A stretch of 41,871 bases of DNA from a virus. Numbering within the stretch: position 1 is the stretch's first letter; every line of letters begins with the position of its first letter. The notes under the pieces were generated by a model. That model saw only the letters and a list, made by a program, of their open reading frames with translations. It was not told where the DNA came from and ran no database searches. The translations under genes and the position numbers were made by a program. Of the stretch, positions 12,181 through 26,325 are shown one piece after another. The stretch is taken from IMG/VR virus record IMGVR_UViG_3300020442_000102, positions 1 through 41,871 of that record; one strand, written 5' to 3'.

Positions 12181-12657
12181 CTACTCCTGTATTGATTTTA
12201 AATACCATACGAGCCAACCAAAACCGACAATTGTACATAATAATAAAAATATAAAAATGCCCTCTATAATACGTTCTTTTATCTCTTGCTGACGATATAG
12301 CTGTTCTTGTCTAGCTTTTCTAATCTTGCCCTCCATTGCAATCAATTCTTCCCAAGCTTTATGACCATGTGAGAATTGAATGAAAGTTTTAAGCTCATAT
12401 CTTTGCTCTTCTAGTTTCTTCTTAGCGGCAAAGGCTTCTAATGCTTCTTGTTCTACTGATCCAAATACCTTACGAAAGATAGGTGGATTCTTAGCTTGTT
12501 TCTCTTTTTGTTCTATATCAGACACAGCACTCATCCATCTTGATAAATCTCCTGTCATAGATTCAATATCACGACCTGCTTGAAAAGCACGTTTGAGACC
12601 GGAAAATGCCGTACTTGCTGTGGTCAGGCAAGCACCAATTGTAATTGGATCAAACAT
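12181..12657 (-). CDS. Membrane-anchored helical phage protein (158 aa)
   Basis: Starts MFDPITIGACLTTASTAFSG, a small-residue amphipathic segment. A long charged helical region follows (EQKEKQAKNPPIFRKVFGSVEQEALEAF onward). Near the C-terminus there is a strong membrane span, about residues 132-152 (GIFIFLLLCTIVGFGWLVWY). Proteins of this layout recur next to tail genes in marine phages without assigned function. The TAATG-type junction with the upstream gene shares one base. Its pairing with the other TM protein suggests the two act at the membrane together, in infection or lysis; inference only. Confidence 0.6.
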   Translation of the reverse strand: MFDPITIGACLTTASTAFSGLKRAFQAGRDIESMTGDLSRWMSAVSDIEQKEKQAKNPPIFRKVFGSVEQEALEAFAAKKKLEEQRYELKTFIQFSHGHKAWEELIAMEGKIRKARQEQLYRQQEIKERIIEGIFIFLLLCTIVGFGWLVWYLKSIQE

Positions 12658-13166
12658 TAAGATGGTTTAGTTGGCCAGGTTACATTATATATGTCAGATG
12701 CTTTTGTTATATCACGTAGCTGTTGTCTATAAGTTCTCCATGCACTAGAATCTCCATCTGCATCTTCAATCTTATGTATCTGCCAATCAGCTTCAGCTAG
12801 TAATGGCTCTCTTTGTCCTCTCAAACTATCCATCATGTCACGATCTAACCTGTCTTGCCACTCAGCATCTTGTGATGCTTTTGTTACAGTTTTACCATCT
12901 TCATCTGTGTAGGTTTTATGTCTGTCTATTTCTGACCATTTTGTAAACCATTTATCATCTATTTTCTCCACACCATCTTGAACAATAATTTTTGTATTGC
13001 TTGATGGAGTAGGACTTCCTGAGGGATAAATTAATTCATATCCTAAATGATCAATTAGATCTGCATTTATACCTGAACCTAAAGGAAAGGACATATTTTT
13101 ATTATTTTCCTTAATTTCAGTTTCTGTATGTATCTCACCTGTATCTTTTTTTCTATATTCTGCCAT
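12657..13166 (-). CDS. Tail-fibre assembly chaperone-like protein (Phage_tail_APC type)
   Basis: The C-terminal 60 residues match the phage tail assembly chaperone signature: R-x-x-LLAEADWQIHKIED ... WRTYRQQLRDIT ... VTWPTKPS, that is, 'LLAxxDW ... W..YRQ.LRD ... WP..P'. The N-terminal part (DTGEIHTETEI; MSFPLG; LGYELIYPSG) resembles the usual leading domain of these proteins, which reads like a fibre-attachment segment. Such proteins help fold or attach fibres, and it follows directly on the modular 759-residue fibre-like gene, ten bases away. Confident on motif, moderate on exact role. Confidence 0.75.
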   Translation of the reverse strand: MAEYRKKDTGEIHTETEIKENNKNMSFPLGSGINADLIDHLGYELIYPSGSPTPSSNTKIIVQDGVEKIDDKWFTKWSEIDRHKTYTDEDGKTVTKASQDAEWQDRLDRDMMDSLRGQREPLLAEADWQIHKIEDADGDSSAWRTYRQQLRDITKASDIYNVTWPTKPS

Positions 13167-13175
13167 TTGTTTCTC

Positions 13176-15455
13176 CTATCTCAAAGCCATATACATATAT
13201 CTAGAAGTTGTTTGACCATCATTCATGTCATTAGATCTGTTATGGGTGCTACCCTCCTCAGCAGTTCTTACTGTGCCATCATTGCCCTTGACTATAAATC
13301 CACTAGAATGAGGAGATATTACGTTACCTGTAACACTCTGCCAACTTCCTGGAGAGGACAATTCATCATAAGCATCTACACTTGTTGTTATACCTCTATT
13401 AGATGTAAATAGCATCCATGTACCCCTATTTGCTCCTCCCGTTCCAGAATTGTCATAGTTTCTTATTAAAATAAATCTAGCTGAAGAAGAGAATCCACAA
13501 TCAACAGTTATATCATTAGCTGATCCTGAATAATTTCCTATTTTACATATGTTAGGATATGATGCGAACACAGTATACATAAAAACTTTACCATCAGCAT
13601 TTATGCCACCACCACCCATTCCTGTATCTTGCCCTACAGAAAAAGTATTTTTATTAGGATATAAATCTGCCCAAGCCTGATAATAATCACTCCACCTATT
13701 ATCACTCCAACCATAAGTATATCTATGTTCTGCTGTCATAGCAGAGAATCTTCCTGCGGGATCTCCTGGTCCTGCTGCTTTACAATAAATTACAAGTCCT
13801 GTATACCCTGACTGAGAATAGGAATTTACCCAAATCATTTCAGGTTCTACACCTAAGTTGTGCTTTACATGCTTAGTTCCCCCATTACCATAATAGTAAC
13901 CTGAATGTGCAAATTTAGGAAATTCTCTAATCATGTCACCATCTGTACGTGGACTGTTTAATAGTGTACTTGAATAAAACCCCTCTTTAAAAAAATCGTG
14001 ATTATAACTTTTTTCCATTCTCACTTGCTGATGCCATCTAGGATAGTATGCGTCTGGACAAATTCTTCTTGCAATTTCCATAGTTCTAGTATTAGAATTA
14101 GGTGTAGTAACCATTGCTATATCAGGGGGAAAGCCTGCAACTAATCGTGGATTATACGCACTTTGATTTCCATTAGCTCCTACATAGACATCTGTATGTG
14201 ATCTTGCTGGTTTCATAGGATTCGTTCTTATCGCTGTATATACATAAGTATCTCCATCATTGTTAAAACTTCTATGTGTTTGATTAGTATCGGAGATAAC
14301 ACTAGCATCATCAACTAATTTAAAACCATCAGGCATTTGATGAAACGTAACCCTATCTGTTGCAGAAGTTCCTATATCATTCATAGGTATATACTTACCG
14401 GTACTTCCATAACCATTTGTGCCTGACAATACTCCCTGAGTAGTATGAGTAAGATATGGTATGTTGAATCCGTAGCTTCCTGATGGTTTTTGATCACTCA
14501 TTACGAACCATCTTGCATCATTGTTAGTACTCCATGCACCTGTACCATCAGCATTTTTAACCATAACAAAACTTGGTTGCCATCCTACTGATATATGAGT
14601 TCCTCTATTACCAGAACCATTGCCCCCTGCGTTAACTCCCTCATAGCTTCCTGTCTGAATAAAGCTATTAGCACTTTCATCATGGGCAAATAAATAGGCT
14701 ACGTATTCATAACTAGATGCATTACTTGAATCTGCTGAATGAGTATTAGCACTTCCCTCTCCACCTCCATGAACTCCAACAGTAAAGTGAGTACTTGTTG
14801 GTGCAGTATTATTCCATATAGAACCACCACTTCCATCATCAGCACTTATAAATGCAGAAGTTAATTGTTCATATTTATGCCATTTTGTATGCCCCATTGA
14901 TCTGTGATAACAAGCCCAAGAAAAATTATAATTGCTAGGATTGGATTTGTTTTTTATTAATATCATTCCAGGTTCACATTGTAGATTATGTGCTATACTT
15001 TGAGGTGAACTTGAGCCTGTATAATTAACTATATCAAAAAATCTAGGTTTAACTCTAAACACCCAAAAATCATAATGAACACCATTTGTATTAATTTCAC
15101 TAAACGGCCCGATATTTGCAGCACCTCCACCACCACCTGCTCCAACATTGAGAAAGCTAACCCCCTGATTTGATCCTGGTGATGATAATCTAGCAGCTGA
15201 ACTTGTATCTAAATAATTTCCAACTCCTGTACCACCTTTATTTAAAGTATCAATTAGGTAATGCCTACTTCCTTTAATCCACATCAAACCATCATATGTA
15301 CTTAAATCAACATTACTTCCATTGTAATTGTTAAAAACAATTGTATCTGTTCCTCCTGATCCTGTATATGAACCAGAATAAAAATAATCTTCTATATATT
15401 CTGTAGGCTCAATTGCTGATTGTTTTCCTGTAATAGCTCTTGTTAAACGACTCAT
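13176..15455 (-). CDS. Modular repeat tail-fibre/adhesion protein (759 aa)
   Basis: A Gly/Ser/Asn/Tyr-rich beta protein built of related modules. Each opens with a Y-x-G strand (YSGSYTG at 26; VNYTGSS at 143; QTGSYEG at 267; HSGYYYG at 517; IGNYSGS at 639). Each continues with a 'G-[FW]/NL-x-P-x-[FM]-[IV]-x-[IV]-[KR]-N' strand (EPGMILIKN; QPSFVMVKN; EPEMIWVN; SARFILIRN), and modules close with Y-x-Y (EYVAYLF, TYVYTAI, FMYTVFA, YMYMALR). This is the DUF7483-like architecture seen in marine phage receptor-facing proteins. N-terminal LTRAITGKQSA looks like a virion-attachment helix. Position after the other tail genes and before the fibre chaperone supports host adhesion. No enzymatic motif was found. 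Confidence 0.7.
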   Translation of the reverse strand: MSRLTRAITGKQSAIEPTEYIEDYFYSGSYTGSGGTDTIVFNNYNGSNVDLSTYDGLMWIKGSRHYLIDTLNKGGTGVGNYLDTSSAARLSSPGSNQGVSFLNVGAGGGGGAANIGPFSEINTNGVHYDFWVFRVKPRFFDIVNYTGSSSPQSIAHNLQCEPGMILIKNKSNPSNYNFSWACYHRSMGHTKWHKYEQLTSAFISADDGSGGSIWNNTAPTSTHFTVGVHGGGEGSANTHSADSSNASSYEYVAYLFAHDESANSFIQTGSYEGVNAGGNGSGNRGTHISVGWQPSFVMVKNADGTGAWSTNNDARWFVMSDQKPSGSYGFNIPYLTHTTQGVLSGTNGYGSTGKYIPMNDIGTSATDRVTFHQMPDGFKLVDDASVISDTNQTHRSFNNDGDTYVYTAIRTNPMKPARSHTDVYVGANGNQSAYNPRLVAGFPPDIAMVTTPNSNTRTMEIARRICPDAYYPRWHQQVRMEKSYNHDFFKEGFYSSTLLNSPRTDGDMIREFPKFAHSGYYYGNGGTKHVKHNLGVEPEMIWVNSYSQSGYTGLVIYCKAAGPGDPAGRFSAMTAEHRYTYGWSDNRWSDYYQAWADLYPNKNTFSVGQDTGMGGGGINADGKVFMYTVFASYPNICKIGNYSGSANDITVDCGFSSSARFILIRNYDNSGTGGANRGTWMLFTSNRGITTSVDAYDELSSPGSWQSVTGNVISPHSSGFIVKGNDGTVRTAEEGSTHNRSNDMNDGQTTSRYMYMALR

Positions 15456-18839: not shown

Positions 18840-19775
18840 TTATGACACCCTCAATACGTTATTTACTCCACTAGTCTGAACAATCATTGATGATCTTAAA
18901 TAGTCATATCTATTAATATATAAACTTCTCATATATTTTATGCCTTGCTCAAACTTCTGTTGAGATATCTGGGCTGATTGTGTATCTCCTCTAAATTGAT
19001 AAGCATAAAACATTGCCCCATCTACAATTACATGTTGAAATTCTTTTGGAACACTAGGCACATCTGAATGCAAAGATAACGATACAGGATTCTGATAGTA
19101 TTCATAAACTACTTCATACGCTTTATCAGGGCATGGATAAAATATAAATTCTTGACTTGGTGTTCGTATTATGTTTCTAGGCACAGTTCTAATACTATTG
19201 TTCGTATTATATTCGTGATCTACATAATTATCTAAATACTCTTGATAATCCATTGCTTTTAATTTTTTAGTTTCAACACCTAGTCCTTTAGTAAAAGTCA
19301 ATGCAACATCATCACTCAATGTTTGTTGTGTTGATAGCACTAAATTATTCTGATCTGATAGACTAGAAACAGTAACTGTACCGACAATGCCCTCTCCTGT
19401 AACTGTCATGCCTGCTGTAATTGTTCCTACATTTGTATCCACTACTAATGTAGTTGTGTTTGATGTAGCACCATTTACTCTTGCAGTAGATGTAATTCTT
19501 TCATTTCTTTTAATTCTAAAACTATCCATGTGAATTAACTTAGCATCTTCAGGATACGAATATCTAACAATGCCTGCAGATAGAACTTCTTCCTCTTCTC
19601 TGTGATTCCACGGCCAGCTAAACTCTTCATGATTTATATGTCTAATTGAAGAATTAACTGCATCTTTTGCTGTCTGATAGAAGCCTATAGCTGTAGGAAA
19701 TGTTGTTGTGTTCAATTCAACTTCATTCAATCTTCTGTTAATTTCATTGACTAATTCTAAAAAGTTATAAGCCAT
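18840..19775 (-). CDS. Head-to-tail adaptor / tail tubular protein A-like (311 aa)
   Basis: The N-terminal FLELVNEINRRLNEVELN, with FYQTAKDAVNSSIRHIN, is the helical start of podovirus adaptor proteins (gp4 of P22, gp11 of T7). SWPWNHREEEEVLSAGIVRYSYPEDA and MDSFRIKR are characteristic, as are the later DYQEYLDNYVD ... FIFYPCPDKAYEVVYEYYQNP and VIVDGAMFYAYQFRGDTQ. Residues about 97-165 (VNGATSNTTTLVVDTNVGTI) look like a beta-sandwich insertion of Ig-like kind, not part of the core. The adaptor binds below the portal ring and links it to the nozzle. Confidence 0.75.
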   Translation of the reverse strand: MAYNFLELVNEINRRLNEVELNTTTFPTAIGFYQTAKDAVNSSIRHINHEEFSWPWNHREEEEVLSAGIVRYSYPEDAKLIHMDSFRIKRNERITSTARVNGATSNTTTLVVDTNVGTITAGMTVTGEGIVGTVTVSSLSDQNNLVLSTQQTLSDDVALTFTKGLGVETKKLKAMDYQEYLDNYVDHEYNTNNSIRTVPRNIIRTPSQEFIFYPCPDKAYEVVYEYYQNPVSLSLHSDVPSVPKEFQHVIVDGAMFYAYQFRGDTQSAQISQQKFEQGIKYMRSLYINRYDYLRSSMIVQTSGVNNVLRVS

Positions 19776-19776
19776 A

Positions 19777-20118
19777 TTAGTTTTCCTTAATTCTTAATGT
19801 TACAGTTCTTTCAGATACAAGTCCGTTAGGTGCAGATGTCATTTGACAAGTTATCTTATATGTTTTGTTTAATGTTCCACCCTCTAATCTAATAGTAGCA
19901 ACTGTATCTGTTTGAGTCTGTAATACCCCTTTAGAAAGTAATCCATCTACAGTAACATCTTGCCCAAATGTAGCTGCAGTTTTCACTCCATCTGCATCAT
20001 TTATAAACCATGCAATACGAGGATTTGTTGATATTGTTTGATCACCTAAAAATCTAGACCAATCTATACTGTAGTCTAGTTTTTCATCTGGATCTTTTGG
20101 CGGCCATTTATATGACAT
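19777..20118 (-). CDS. Ig-like fibre/adaptor protein (113 aa)
   Basis: The opening MSYKWPPKDPDEKLDYSIDW, then SRFLGDQTISTNPRIAWFI, is a very recognisable start of small phage structural proteins placed beside adaptor genes. The rest alternates short beta strands (TVATIRLEGGTLNKTYKIT; ERTVTLRIKEN), giving an Ig-like beta sandwich of about 80 residues. Strong RBS AAGGAGATACC before ATG. Encoded between the beta-repeat protein and the adaptor. Most likely a virion fibre-attachment or tail-completion protein. Confidence 0.65.
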   Translation of the reverse strand: MSYKWPPKDPDEKLDYSIDWSRFLGDQTISTNPRIAWFINDADGVKTAATFGQDVTVDGLLSKGVLQTQTDTVATIRLEGGTLNKTYKITCQMTSAPNGLVSERTVTLRIKEN

Positions 20119-20127
20119 GGTATCTCC

Positions 20128-21525
20128 TTATGCTGCTAATAATGTTTTTGATCTAACATTGTGTTGTTTTTCAGGTATATAAATAGTTCTATCTTCTTCC
20201 TCAATAATAACTACATTGTTAATAAAGTTGTCTCTAAAATCTACATACACAGTTCTGTCTTTATTATAATCTTCTGCACTTACAGCAGTATAAATATAAT
20301 TTGTTGAAAAGAAACTAGACAATACTACAGATGCAATCTCTACAACTGCGTTAGCTACAACTGAAACAGTACCTAAAGTAGCAGTAGTAGATACAGAAGC
20401 TAGTGTTAAATTAGCATCACCTACAAAACTTAATGTACCTACTGAACCATTAACTTGAAATCCTGTAGGCTCTACTATTGCATTTCCTATAACTGTAGGT
20501 GCATTTAGTGTTATAGTTCCTTGTACAGATGTTAAAGTAAAAGTAGCAGTTCCTACAATAGATAATGTGCCTATATTGCTAACAACAACAAGTCCACTTG
20601 AACTAAAGAAATTGCTGTCATAAATTGCAGTATCATAATTGGATTGTTGAACATTTTCTGCTAGAGTTACATTTGCATCTGCACTAACAACTGCTAATGC
20701 TCCACCAAATTGTGTAGTTGCTACAAAACTTATACTTGTAAAATCAACATTAGCATCAGATTCTACTGACGGAGCATTTACTGTAGATAAAGCTCTTGTT
20801 TCATTATTACCTGTAAAAGCTGCAATACTAACATTTGCAGTACCAATAAGTGTTAAGTTTCCAATTGATCCTGTTAAAGTAACACTATCTGGTTCTACTT
20901 GACTGTCTGTAGTAACAGATGTTGTACCTAAAGATAAATTGGCTTGAACAGCTTGTTCATGTCCACCTAATACCATGTTTGTTATAGTTGTCACACTAGG
21001 TGGATTAACTGTAAATGTTCCTACTATAGAAGAGGGTGTAACATTTGCAGTAGTTGTTATTGTGAATGAACCAACTGCTGTTGTTGTCTGAAAATTTGAT
21101 GCAGATACTAAAGCGTTAGATACGACACTCAAATTACCAATAGCTGTTATTCCTTGTACACCTATTAAGGTAACACTACCTGTTGTAGAAAAACCTAATG
21201 TACCAATTGCTGTTGTTGCAGACAATCCTGTTGTTGAAACTATAGCTGATGTTACAGGTAAAACTGTTCCGACTGATGTTGTGCCTGATGCAGAACCTAA
21301 TGTTACAATTGCTGTACCAATAATAAGAGGTGAACCTACTGCCCCTACTGTCCTAGTTTCATTGTTGCCTGTAAAAGCTGCTATACCAACAGTTGCAGTA
21401 CCTACTATTGCAATGTTTCCTACATTAGTATTAGTAACTAAACTTGCAAATCCAGAAACAGTTACACTAGTGCTACCCGGTCCTGAAAAAGAATCTTGGC
21501 TAAATGTTACTGCACCAAATGACAT
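20128..21525 (-). CDS. Beta-repeat (solenoid-like) virion protein (465 aa)
   Basis: Residues about 15-400 are a chain of short units, each about 23-26 residues, of the form 'T-x-x-G-x-[LV]-x-[IV]-x-x-x-A-x-[VL]-x-[LP]' (for example NVGNIAIVGTATVGI, AIGNLSVVSNALVSAS, SIGNLTLIGTANVSI, SVGTLSFVGDANLTLA). An about 30-residue block ending AAFTGNNETR occurs twice, near residues 35-60 and 224-250, and is also near-repeated at DNA level. Composition is extreme: few charged residues, rich in T, V, S and A. The last 60 residues change character: AEDYNKDRTVYVDFRDNFIN, then EEEDRTIYIPEKQHNVRS, a charged domain also found in other marine phage structural proteins. Likely a fibrous or surface-display protein; function unknown. 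Confidence 0.65.
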   Translation of the reverse strand: MSFGAVTFSQDSFSGPGSTSVTVSGFASLVTNTNVGNIAIVGTATVGIAAFTGNNETRTVGAVGSPLIIGTAIVTLGSASGTTSVGTVLPVTSAIVSTTGLSATTAIGTLGFSTTGSVTLIGVQGITAIGNLSVVSNALVSASNFQTTTAVGSFTITTTANVTPSSIVGTFTVNPPSVTTITNMVLGGHEQAVQANLSLGTTSVTTDSQVEPDSVTLTGSIGNLTLIGTANVSIAAFTGNNETRALSTVNAPSVESDANVDFTSISFVATTQFGGALAVVSADANVTLAENVQQSNYDTAIYDSNFFSSSGLVVVSNIGTLSIVGTATFTLTSVQGTITLNAPTVIGNAIVEPTGFQVNGSVGTLSFVGDANLTLASVSTTATLGTVSVVANAVVEIASVVLSSFFSTNYIYTAVSAEDYNKDRTVYVDFRDNFINNVVIIEEEDRTIYIPEKQHNVRSKTLLAA

Positions 21526-21528
21526 TTA

Positions 21529-21681
21529 TTATTTCCTACATTTTTCGCAGTCACAAGATGAACATGTACAATTAGGATTGTAACATTGTAGACCACAATG
21601 AGAAGAACAGCCACAATTATGACACATTATACCATGCATTTGGCTGTGATTTGGTATATCTGTTTCATCTTGTTGAGCCAT
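21529..21681 (-). CDS. Cysteine/histidine-rich metallothionein-like mini-protein (50 aa)
   Basis: ATG at 21681 shares its A with the upstream TAA (TAATG) and has GGAGGG upstream, so this start is preferred to a longer in-frame one at 21720. The product is MAQQDETDIPNHSQMHGIM followed by a segment with ten cysteines in 29 residues (C20, C23, C25, C29, C33, C38, C40, C43, C45, C48) and histidines at 12, 16, 21 and 28. Three CxC and three CxxC steps are interleaved, the layout of metallothioneins. A folded metal cluster is the obvious reading. Disulfides are unlikely for a protein kept in the cytoplasm but possible if exported on a virion. No homologue is identified. It is coupled to the lectin-like fibre gene. 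Confidence 0.75.
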   Translation of the reverse strand: MAQQDETDIPNHSQMHGIMCHNCGCSSHCGLQCYNPNCTCSSCDCEKCRK

Positions 21682-23273
21682 TAATACCCTCCAATATACT
21701 CTGCTGCTAAGTTTTGACATAGTTCATATCTTCTAGCAGAAGACATGGGATGAGTATACATACTTAAATGCATCAAGTCGTAGCACTCATTGCTTATGCC
21801 TGACCAAGTATTCCAATATGACGGGCCCCATTGTGGACTCCATCTATAGTTACTATTATTATAAGAACCACCAGAAATTTTAGCATTCTGTGATGTGCCA
21901 TTATAACTTTGACTTCTTATATTAACATAGTTAGATAAGTTCGTAAAAGAGCCTGTTGCACTAGTTTTAATTATTTCAGTCACGTTACCTGTAACTGATC
22001 CTCCTCCTGAAGAAGAACTAGTTGCTCTTTGATAAGAACCACTAAAAGAAAAAACCCTAATCCACCATATATCTTGAATACTGCCATATCCACTTGCTCC
22101 TGATGGCCAGGTACTATAACCATATTGATTAGAATATTGAGATTGATTATAATACATTGAACCACAGTACCATACATTGTAACCATTAGGATTATACACG
22201 TACCAACCTATATTTGCGTACTCACTTATCCCACTTCCCCATATTATAAAAGGTCTTGTCCATGTATCAGTTGTGCCTCTAGTTGAAAGCAATCTAAATG
22301 CCATAGCTACTGTCCAACCACCTGTATTACATATTTCTTGAGAGGGATCTCCATTTCCATTACAATCTTGAGGATATTGATTGTTACCAAACGCATTATT
22401 ATAAACAGTTTGAAAATATGAACCTCCTGACGAATATGTACTCAGTTGAGGATAGAATCTTTTCCAATAAGGTTGAAAATAAGGTAGTCCTCGCAATCTC
22501 ATGCAGTATGTTGTACCGGGAAATGTAGTTCGTGGTCTAGTATAAGATTTTAATTGAGTTCTTGGGTATGGATTACTTGTATTGCCTGTTATCCATTGAC
22601 CTCGACCTGCATTTCTATTATCATAACTATTATATGTGCCAGATGAATATGAAGTATTATGTGTATTTGCATAATTTGGAGCTGGCTTCCAATAATCACT
22701 ACTTGCACTATGATCTGCATTAGACATGCTCGATTCATCTGCTCCTGCTTTTTTGTACATAGAAGCTAATAATGTATTACTTTCTGTCCACGGGTATTGA
22801 CTCGTATTTAACGTATTGAGTTGAGGATGATTACCCTGTCTATATGCTCCCTCTGTAGCAGCATCAAATACAAAAAGAGGTTTTAATGCTTTTGAAGTTG
22901 GAGAATAAAAATTATTAGGATATGCCCATACTCTAGAATAAGGTCGATAGTTATCATACAAATAACTTGCAGCAACTTGTTGACCTAATGGATATACTCT
23001 AGTTACACCAAATCCTGTTTCATCATTTTCGTTATCTATTAACCATTGAGGGTGTGAGCTAGATGTATATTGTTTATCTTTTTCATATTGTGGTTGATAT
23101 TGAGAATAACCTGTTAATAAATGTGAATTGCTATTCCAATAGTTTTTTACACCTCGACTACCTAATAAAGCACCTACATCTTGTTCTCCTAATCCACAAT
23201 GTGAATCAGAAGCTCTACCTAACTCTGTATTTATATCTGCAAAACTAACTTGACCACTACTAGTTATTGCCAT
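21681..23273 (-). CDS. Lectin-like (ConA/LamG-type) tail-fibre protein (530 aa)
   Basis: Residues 1-20, MAITSSGQVSFADINTELGR, form the standard virion-anchoring start of marine phage fibres. The central part is unusually rich in Tyr, Asn, Ser and Trp. From about residue 317 (NTGGWTVAMAFRLLS; RPFIIWGSG; GWYVYN) the pattern is a jelly-roll lectin/LamG-like domain, and the end (SMYTHPMSSARRYELCQNLAAEY) matches the terminal strand and helix ('lsxxERxxvexYLaxKYG') of that family. It should bind host surface glycans. The start overlaps the upstream S74 fibre by 14 bases with GGAG spacing. The shared 1-base junction couples it to the Cys-rich gene. Confidence 0.7.
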   Translation of the reverse strand: MAITSSGQVSFADINTELGRASDSHCGLGEQDVGALLGSRGVKNYWNSNSHLLTGYSQYQPQYEKDKQYTSSSHPQWLIDNENDETGFGVTRVYPLGQQVAASYLYDNYRPYSRVWAYPNNFYSPTSKALKPLFVFDAATEGAYRQGNHPQLNTLNTSQYPWTESNTLLASMYKKAGADESSMSNADHSASSDYWKPAPNYANTHNTSYSSGTYNSYDNRNAGRGQWITGNTSNPYPRTQLKSYTRPRTTFPGTTYCMRLRGLPYFQPYWKRFYPQLSTYSSGGSYFQTVYNNAFGNNQYPQDCNGNGDPSQEICNTGGWTVAMAFRLLSTRGTTDTWTRPFIIWGSGISEYANIGWYVYNPNGYNVWYCGSMYYNQSQYSNQYGYSTWPSGASGYGSIQDIWWIRVFSFSGSYQRATSSSSGGGSVTGNVTEIIKTSATGSFTNLSNYVNIRSQSYNGTSQNAKISGGSYNNSNYRWSPQWGPSYWNTWSGISNECYDLMHLSMYTHPMSSARRYELCQNLAAEYIGGY

Positions 23274-26200
23274 TAAGTTGCTCCTTTAAACAATCAATTT
23301 GTATCTGCTGTTCTTTTATAGCTTCAATTAAAAGTGGTACAAGCTTTTCATAATCAACTGTTTTATAATCTTCACCTGACTTACTTGTTCCATCTTCAGC
23401 TATATCAAAAGGTGCTTGACTTACAATTTCAGGCAATACTTTTTCTACCTCTTGTGCTGATACACCTATCTGTTTCTTATCTTGATTTTCATATCCATAT
23501 TCTTTTGCTTTATCATTTTCAGAAAAGTAATATCCATTAAGTTGTTTTACTTTATCTACAGCATTTTCTATCTTACCATGAAAATCTTTGAGCCTTTCAT
23601 CTGAATAATATGCAATAATATTTCCTGTTGCTCTAAGCTCACCTTGACTTCCTGTACTAGATGTACCAACACTAAAAGCATTAGCATATCCTGTAAAGTT
23701 AGCTGAATATCCACCACTAGAGGGAGTTACCCATTGTGGAGGTGCAGCATTTCCATATGATGTAAGAACTTGCCCTGAACTTCCATATTCCATATTTGCA
23801 GGAGCTTGATTTGTATTTGTAGCATTACCACCTTGAGTAAATCCAATAGCACCATAAGTATTGATATTTAAACGTAATGCTGGAGTAGCATATGTTCCAC
23901 CACCTGTCATAAACCCTAAATTTGCATAGTTCTGATTTGCATCTGCACGTAGGTTTTTAAACATAAAGTTAGCACTACCCTCGTTCCATAAGATATTAGC
24001 TTTTTCTGTTGATCCCCCATAAAGACGAATACCTCTATTATTGTTACCACTAGCTTCAAGTCTAAGAATAGGATCAGCAGAGGTGACATGGATTGAATCA
24101 GAAGGATCTGAATTATTTACACCTATTTTACCATCTTGATGTACAGAAAACTTACAATGAGTAACTTGTGCAGTATCATAACTCATAGATGCATTTGCTT
24201 GATTACAAACCATCCATCTATGTTGAGTTGTTTCATTGTATACAGTACCTGAATACCAATTCTCATCAGCACCCTCGTTAAACAGATATACACCTTGTCC
24301 TCTGTATTCAGGTGAACCACTAGAGGGATGACTTCTTAAAACAATAGCACCTTGTGTGTACCCTGACCCATCTCCTTTAACTTCTAAACCTACTGCACCT
24401 GCTGAATAGGCATAAATACCACCATAAAAATATGCACTTCTATCTTGACCAAAAAATAATGCATCTTGAAAAACATTTGAATTGTTTCTCGTTTGTATTT
24501 TCATACCTCCACCATATGTACCATTACCATCTGCTAGAGCTATTAAATTAAATCTTCTGTTATTTCCATTTCCTCCATCTGATCTACCTGTAAACACATT
24601 TCCCGTATATGAGTTTATATTATTTCCACCATTAACTTCAAGTCCTACAAGGGTTTCAGGATCACACCTTATCCCAAAATCTCCATTTGTACCATGTATA
24701 GATGTAGCTAAAGTACCATTAGCTTGAGGATATGTTCCACTACCACCTACAAAAGATCTTACTCTATTTACACCTGATCCATCTCTATAAGCTAACTGAG
24801 AAAATACATGATTTGAGCCTGAATAGTAATTCAAACCACTATAGTAAGTTCCTTTTGATCTTAGATTAACCCAAGCATTAGCATTACTTACACTTCTACC
24901 CTCAGCTGCTGTTACTTCAAGATTAGATGCATTATCATCTGAACCATCTGTAGAGGTATACATATAGCAGATTGGTTTAAAAAGTGTGCCATCCCATTCA
25001 CCAAAACTATGTTTTTCATTTGGTGAAGAATTAGTTCTAATATCTTGGAAATAGAATAAAGATTTGTAAGAGTTACTTTGTCTAGCTACTCCACCCCCTG
25101 TATTCTCATCCATATTAATTGCCCACCCATTTGAGTAACCATTACTATCACTATAAACAAGAACATTTTGACTTACAGTTGTTTCACCATTTTTATAAAT
25201 CTCTAGAGCATTTGCAGTATCAGTTCCACCTGTTGCAGTACTAGTACTAACTTTTAATGCCGCAGAATTAACAAGTGAAACCCTATCTTGCCAAGCACTA
25301 GATTCATACGTTTGCATTACAATAGGTTGAGCTTCCGACCTTATTGTACTTTTACTGCTATCTTGTTTTAGGTAAAATCCACCACCTGTTCCTACATTTA
25401 CTGTTGTTGTTGCAGTTACTGAAGAATTAAACGTAGCTGCTCCTGAAGCAGACATATCAAGTTTAAGAGCCTCACTAACTCCGTTACCATCAAATATTAT
25501 ATCACCATTAGATACTTCATTTTTTATAACTACATTATTTGATGCAAATCCACCAATTGTTCCAACAAGTGAGCCATCATCTTTTAATAAAATATCACCC
25601 CCACCTACATCAAGAGTTAAATCTCCTGCAACATCAATGGTTAAATCGCCACTAGATAAATCAATCTCTGTGCCATCAATGGTTATGTTGTCTATAGATA
25701 CTCCTGCATTTGCAGTTACACCACCTGTAAAAGTAGCACCAGATAATGCAGCATAAGAAGACAAATCACTTGTTAATGCCACAGTTCCTGTTGCATCAGG
25801 AAATGTTATTGTCCTATCATTAGCAGTTGGATTTGTTACAACTAGTATAGTCTCATTAAAGTTTTCTGATGTTCCCTCAAAAGTAATTCTATCACCATTG
25901 ATGTATACATCATTGTCTAATTTAATAATTCCTGTACCATTAGCTGCAATATTAACATCACCATTAGTAATACTTGTTGTTAAAAATCTTCCATCTAAAT
26001 CTATATTGCTAGCAGCATTTCCATACACGGCTCTTCCTGCAGGCTGTGTTACAAATACTTTTTGATTACCTGTACAACTTATCTTATTTGTATTACCTGC
26101 AGAAGTTTGTAATACTGTATCTCTAGATAGAGTAGTGCCACTAGCAGTATATGTACCAATACCTATTTCAAAATTACTGCCATCTTCAATACAATAATAC

Positions 26201-26325
26201 GTAGTATTACTATTGCCTATATCTGCAAAAGTACGAAATCCATCAACAGCACCACTAAGAGTTAGTGTTCCTGTCCCGGTAGTACTAGATGTTTCTTTTA
26301 TTCGATCTTTTACAACTAAAGCCAT
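23260..26325 (-). CDS. Tail fibre with C-terminal S74 self-cleaving chaperone (1021 aa)
   Basis: N-terminus MALVVKDRIKETSSTTGTGT, with VFVTQPAGRAVYGN near residue 100, is the fibre-base domain found in many marine phages. A long middle of beta-helix-type shaft follows (TITFPDATGTVAL; DLTIDVAGDLTLDVGGGDIL). The last 114 residues are a Peptidase_S74 intramolecular chaperone: SDERLKD at 908-914, giving S908 and K913 with the five-residue spacing of the endosialidase dyad, then IGVSAQEVEKVLPEI and DYEKLVPLLIEAIKEQQIQI. The chaperone trimerises the fibre and is then cut off before S908. It is the longest fibre here and the first in the cluster. A depolymerase domain was not seen. Confidence 0.88.
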   Translation of the reverse strand: MALVVKDRIKETSSTTGTGTLTLSGAVDGFRTFADIGNSNTTYYCIEDGSNFEIGIGTYTASGTTLSRDTVLQTSAGNTNKISCTGNQKVFVTQPAGRAVYGNAASNIDLDGRFLTTSITNGDVNIAANGTGIIKLDNDVYINGDRITFEGTSENFNETILVVTNPTANDRTITFPDATGTVALTSDLSSYAALSGATFTGGVTANAGVSIDNITIDGTEIDLSSGDLTIDVAGDLTLDVGGGDILLKDDGSLVGTIGGFASNNVVIKNEVSNGDIIFDGNGVSEALKLDMSASGAATFNSSVTATTTVNVGTGGGFYLKQDSSKSTIRSEAQPIVMQTYESSAWQDRVSLVNSAALKVSTSTATGGTDTANALEIYKNGETTVSQNVLVYSDSNGYSNGWAINMDENTGGGVARQSNSYKSLFYFQDIRTNSSPNEKHSFGEWDGTLFKPICYMYTSTDGSDDNASNLEVTAAEGRSVSNANAWVNLRSKGTYYSGLNYYSGSNHVFSQLAYRDGSGVNRVRSFVGGSGTYPQANGTLATSIHGTNGDFGIRCDPETLVGLEVNGGNNINSYTGNVFTGRSDGGNGNNRRFNLIALADGNGTYGGGMKIQTRNNSNVFQDALFFGQDRSAYFYGGIYAYSAGAVGLEVKGDGSGYTQGAIVLRSHPSSGSPEYRGQGVYLFNEGADENWYSGTVYNETTQHRWMVCNQANASMSYDTAQVTHCKFSVHQDGKIGVNNSDPSDSIHVTSADPILRLEASGNNNRGIRLYGGSTEKANILWNEGSANFMFKNLRADANQNYANLGFMTGGGTYATPALRLNINTYGAIGFTQGGNATNTNQAPANMEYGSSGQVLTSYGNAAPPQWVTPSSGGYSANFTGYANAFSVGTSSTGSQGELRATGNIIAYYSDERLKDFHGKIENAVDKVKQLNGYYFSENDKAKEYGYENQDKKQIGVSAQEVEKVLPEIVSQAPFDIAEDGTSKSGEDYKTVDYEKLVPLLIEAIKEQQIQIDCLKEQLNGNN

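Follow-up and report, generated by a model that had tools for sequence, protein, structure and literature searches.

The stretch of viral DNA analysed here (IMG/VR record IMGVR_UViG_3300020442_000102, positions 1 to 41,871, 41,871 nucleotides; hereafter the window) carries on its minus strand, at 21529..21681, a gene for a mini-protein of 50 residues with 10 Cys and 4 His which is coupled to the fibre gene before it. The mini-protein very probably binds metal, and there is about an even chance that it is a metal-thiolate partner of the preceding fibre, acting in fibre assembly or in the virion. It is likely homologous to a wider, unnamed family which so far has been seen only in phages and which appears metallothionein-like in design.

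The Cys/His mini-protein gene

Translation of the minus-strand ORF of 50 codons gives MAQQDETDIPNHSQMHGIMCHNCGCSSHCGLQCYNPNCTCSSCDCEKCRK, in agreement with the initial annotation, which had counted ten cysteines and four histidines in 50 residues. The same annotation had described an ATG that shares a base with the fibre stop codon, and this overlap was found as TAATG. A Shine-Dalgarno region (GGAGG; 21682..21695, minus strand, TATATTGGAGGGTATTAATGGCT) lies within the final fibre codons. The closest relative of the window, IMGVR_UViG_3300020433_000192 (L002/L134, hereafter L134), retains both the TAATG overlap and the GGAGG motif. Its homologue of the mini-protein is 88% identical, is flanked by the same neighbour genes and keeps all 10 Cys and all 4 His. 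In this single close pair the mini-protein genes differ by 3 synonymous and 6 nonsynonymous changes, too few to judge purifying selection on this copy. The 50-codon version was preferred because the upstream ATG at 21720, which would give a 63-codon version, is missing in L134.

The exact 10-Cys pattern did not recur in any of 100 dinucleotide shuffles, and 200 Markov resamples of the window yielded no ORF of 30–90 aa in which Cys numbered 10 or more and made up at least 15% of residues. This is a genuine gene, beyond what chance would produce.

The adhesion module of the window phage

The window derives from an HMO-2011-type marine podophage, of which it is a fragment; its terminase is 72.5% identical to that of Puniceispirillum phage HMO-2011 and 61–79% identical to those of several Roseobacter CRP phages. 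The fibre/adhesin gene that would encode the partner of the mini-protein (21681..23273, minus strand, 530 aa, N-terminus MAITSSGQVSFADINTELG) is called a fibre solely from its position and its N-terminal motif; it has no match in Pfam or PHROGs, and the label "lectin-like" which it had been given found no confirmation by Pfam. AlphaFold2 modelling of this protein was uninformative (pLDDT 25). The fibre is 80% identical in L134 and 29% identical in a second related locus, L128.

The module genes listed next are also on the minus strand. Upstream of the fibre is a tail fibre with an S74 chaperone domain (23260..26325, 1021 aa, Pfam PF13884, E 1.1e-10). After the mini-protein come a repeat gene (20128..21525, 465 aa), a gp77-type fibre-tail adaptor (19777..20118, PF23148, E 1.1e-14), which served as an anchor, and an SU10-type adaptor protein (18840..19775, PF24175, E 1.1e-18), the two adaptors being backbone genes. 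Most relatives in which this region is present also have a gene of the repeat type 5' of the adaptor. Elsewhere in the window a tail assembly chaperone (12657..13166, minus strand, PF16778, E 6.5e-11) follows the fibre-region gene at 13176-15455 in an arrangement that mirrors the two-gene order of fibre and mini-protein. A recombination endonuclease VII gene was also present in the window at 2247-2672 (PF02945, E 3.5e-13).

Exchange of fibre and mini-protein as a cassette

Synonymous divergence between the window and L134 was uneven along the module, with dS values of 0.24 for the fibre and 0.13 for the mini-protein as against 0.85 and 1.17 for the two adaptor genes. The low values of the first pair compared with the adaptors mark a recently exchanged cassette. 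dS climbs again through the repeat gene (0.21–0.86 along its length), which is a third, partly exchanged cassette gene. The converse arrangement was found in L128, which is 96–100% identical to the window in the adaptors and downstream backbone genes but has had its cassette replaced. In the slot after its divergent fibre is a different Cys/His mini-protein, P0006 (L128 2230-2457, 75 aa, 6 Cys, ...VCMHSIEYNHPAHCG...TCDVCHCLKC...), and its start again overlaps the stop of the preceding fibre. P0006 was not recovered by the family profile described below and was rejected as a family member on its score, though it may represent another type of fibre partner. Its CxxCxCxxC motif and HCG pair, both chosen after the fact, occurred together in 11 of 500,000 shuffles.

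Cys/His mini-proteins were thus present in all three loci with this fibre type (window, L134 and L128), and none was found in about 40 other related slots lacking it, a co-occurrence that comes from few independent events (two loci with the exact version and one with the P0006 version). The small number of events counts against the fibre-partner reading, and so does the lack of the mini-protein in the isolated relatives HMO-2011 and the CRP phages. Several of the related slots hold tail-assembly chaperones instead, with a Pfam-supported Phage_tail_APC in CRP-207, and the chaperones in the CRP-207 slot and after window gene 13176-15455 argue that this is a slot for fibre partners. The coupling of the mini-protein to the fibre gene proposed from the window holds up: the stop and start overlap, the two genes are exchanged as a cassette, and the mini-protein co-occurs with the fibre type.

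If the mini-protein is a fibre partner, both genes would be read from one message and translation of the mini-protein would be initiated by stop-start coupling. Translation beside the nascent fibre could then supply the mini-protein at levels near those of the fibre, where it would most likely help to fold or cap the fibre or sit on it as a subunit, filling the place that tail-assembly chaperones hold after other fibres. The two genes pass from phage to phage together, in a single adhesion cassette. A more far-reaching version, which we consider unlikely as it stands, is that a metallothionein-type fold is dedicated to receptor-binding fibres as one of their structural or assembly subunits. 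Fibre and subunit would then be swapped as a host-recognition cassette of two genes, and the adhesion apparatus would include a metal cluster. A partner of the simpler kind would already be a new kind of accessory protein in the host-recognition cassettes of a very common marine phage group.

A wider family of phage mini-proteins

Viral contigs were scanned by pattern, since sequences as short and as rich in Cys as these escape homology searches. A tblastn search in annotated phages gave no match, a weak negative because the low-complexity filter may mask Cys-rich queries. The first scan used the last seven Cys of the window protein at fixed spacing, and most of what it picked up was repeat artefact. 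Six short ORFs from unrelated phages stood out from these, and each also has CxC-xx-H directly before the scanned part, a feature that the pattern did not require. A second scan with nine Cys and the conserved His gave real loci in at least 117 viral contigs, with at least 75 distinct proteins, mostly of 39–66 aa. A further scan for all ten Cys, in which the first spacing was that of the window protein, picked up L134 and one other locus, L342; the latter was discarded because the pattern there arises by chance in a frame of a repeat gene. The repeat gene at 20128-21525 is itself of low complexity with a conserved C-terminus, and its off-frames yield spurious Cys-rich ORFs which mislead pattern scans, as in L342.

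The family scaffold is CxC-xx-HC-xxx-C-xxxx-CxC-xx-CxC-xx-C with the consensus CGCxxHCGxSCMTDDCDCTECxCxxC, and the invariant columns are C20, C23, C25, H28, C29, C33, C38, C40, C43, C45 and C48. The core is rich in Cys, His, Gly, Ser, Asp and Glu and has few hydrophobic residues. The window protein has all nine Cys and the His at the family spacing, with its tenth Cys shifted by one residue, and carries CYNPNCTCSSC in place of the TD-rich segment (C-M-T-D-D/G-C-D-C-T-E-C) of most other members; it may accordingly be a divergent member or a case of convergence. Against the family profile HMM the window protein (P0001 in these comparisons) scored 26.2 bits compared with a maximum of 18.6 in 20,000 shuffles, a match to be read with the caveat that the Cys part of this protein had served to recruit the family. 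Under a stricter null in which P0001's own inter-Cys segments were permuted, 6 of 20,000 permutations scored as high. With P0001 above every shuffle and so few segment permutations reaching its score, homology with the family is likely, the alternative being convergence on one metal-cluster template. On free codons the median dN/dS of the family was 0.60, and 87% of pairs had a value below 1; a first estimate of 0.18 was discarded as biased by the imposed Cys.

The same nine-Cys and His pattern was sought in 84,980 prokaryote genomes, where the matches listed were Cys-run or incidental frames with no mini-protein among them, and a family profile search of 398 genomes, a scan run without a positive control, gave no match. 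Neither the mini-protein nor the family members gave a match above the cut-off in Pfam, PHROGs or NCBIfam, solved structures in the PDB held no significant match to the window protein or the family, and open-access literature searches returned no description of a phage or viral metallothionein. The initial annotation knew of no described phage role for such a protein, and within the libraries and papers searched no matching family is described. The libraries used for phage annotation have no such family, yet the contigs that carry its members come from unrelated phages.

Gene neighbourhoods of the family

The family members lie on phage contigs, several of them T4-like and some encoding a DNA polymerase of the T4 type (family B), and in most loci the mini-protein gene overlaps its downstream neighbour. 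Among the matches listed, a tail or structural gene lies directly upstream in 14 of 75 distinct loci and within three genes upstream in 30 of 75; these genes include a collagen-like tail fibre, a cluster with a Laminin_G_3 member and the PHROG 1645 virion protein. In 29 of the 75, again among the matches listed, a gene of a HiPIP-annotated cluster lies within three genes, HiPIP (high-potential iron-sulphur protein) being a label from GenBank names; the Pfam HIPIP profile scored no better than E 0.061, for one relative. Smaller groups of loci adjoin IscA (PF01521), IscU (PF01592), thioredoxin and both RNR subunits. Whether relatives always follow fibre genes, a check suggested at the outset, was answered in the negative: with neighbours as varied as these the family is not tied to fibre genes throughout.

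Several neighbours were recorded in their own right. The HiPIP-named gene at L242 190-612, with 28 similar loci, encodes a conserved Cys-containing phage protein of about 140 aa that is a frequent neighbour of the mini-proteins. At L223 1629-2185 and the adjacent genes, IscU and IscA flank a family member, and Fe-S cluster assembly genes beside mini-proteins recur in L220 and L109. The product of L109 1095-1733 (PHROG 3704) is a widespread cyanophage protein with conflicting public names, "ferredoxin" and "PurM", neither of which is supported by Pfam.

These neighbourhoods bear on the main rival to a fibre partner, an intracellular metal or redox buffer encoded by an auxiliary gene, which we regard as a serious if tentative possibility. 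Such a protein would keep a store of Zn, Cu, Fe or thiols while infection proceeds, perhaps as a supply for metalloproteins or as protection for phage enzymes, and its place in a late operon would be merely a matter of timing. The frequency of HiPIP-annotated neighbours and the occurrence of some members in operons with IscA, IscU, RNR or thioredoxin speak for it, as does the carriage of iscU and erpA by HMO-2011-type genomes (PMC9038755). The provenance of the HiPIP label and the marginal Pfam score behind it weaken this argument, and in the lineage of the window the mini-protein tracks the fibre in cassette exchange and is missing where the fibre type is missing, a pattern that favours a fibre partner there.

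Probable metal binding, fold and related systems

The fold is probably built around a metal-thiolate cluster of about three to four Zn(II) or other soft metal ions held by the ten Cys and the conserved His28. On the model of metallothioneins, this is judged from the ten thiols, the scarcity of hydrophobic residues, an invariant His adjacent to Cys29 and the CxC steps, an arrangement in which thiolates tend to bridge. Proteins with this number of ligands usually carry three to four divalent ions. The metallothionein-like character claimed in the initial annotation fits the conserved scaffold of ten Cys and one His and the near absence of hydrophobic residues; the metal binding itself we infer. 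The AlphaFold2 model of the mini-protein was loose (pLDDT 67, pTM 0.38), the method being unable to model metals, and a fold search with it returned no PDB fold match. If metal binding is true, infection by these phages would be linked to the handling of Zn, Cu or Fe.

Prokaryotic metallothioneins (SmtA/BmtA, PF02069) are small Cys-rich proteins with His co-ligands and CxC/CxxC spacing that fold around a metal-thiolate cluster. The mini-protein resembles them in its size, its Cys and His content, its spacing and its presumed cluster, but its Cys order differs, and the PF02069 profile gave no match to the window at E≤10 while the control Synechococcus genome was detected. The wheat Ec metallothionein, of the plant Ec type (Metallothio_PEC), has a CxC-xx-HC-like segment resembling CGCSSHCG; the mini-protein has no Pfam match.

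A metal-free alternative, in which a disulphide-bonded knob exposed on the virion serves as a knottin-like binding module decorating the fibre, would agree with the even number of Cys, and the weak PDB match of the mini-protein was to a small scorpion-type peptide (E 1.1). We consider this improbable, as the CxC steps, the invariant His beside Cys29 and the Cys near other ligands are better suited to metal-thiolate clusters, and the protein has no apparent signal peptide and would be made in a reducing cytoplasm. The metal lure for siderophore or metal receptors (Ferrojan-type) suggested in the initial annotation draws on the coupling to a fibre gene and on the tail-bound iron proposed for marine phages from HxH motifs (PMC11705849), and is very improbable here, since the mini-protein has no HxH motif, the basis of that proposal, and its soft thiolate ligands fit Zn, Cu or Cd better than mimicry of an Fe-siderophore. 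In T4 gp37 and Alteromonas phage R22Y the HxH pairs are in the tail fibre itself (PMC11705849); tail-bound metal in a marine phage is proposed for the window too, but there it would be in a separate thiol-rich protein.

For the fibre-partner reading the closest comparison is Phage_tail_APC (PF16778). The mini-protein differs from it in being shorter and rich in Cys and His, and shows no profile or sequence match to it, but in HMO-2011-type phages the two share a slot, the one that immediately follows a fibre gene.
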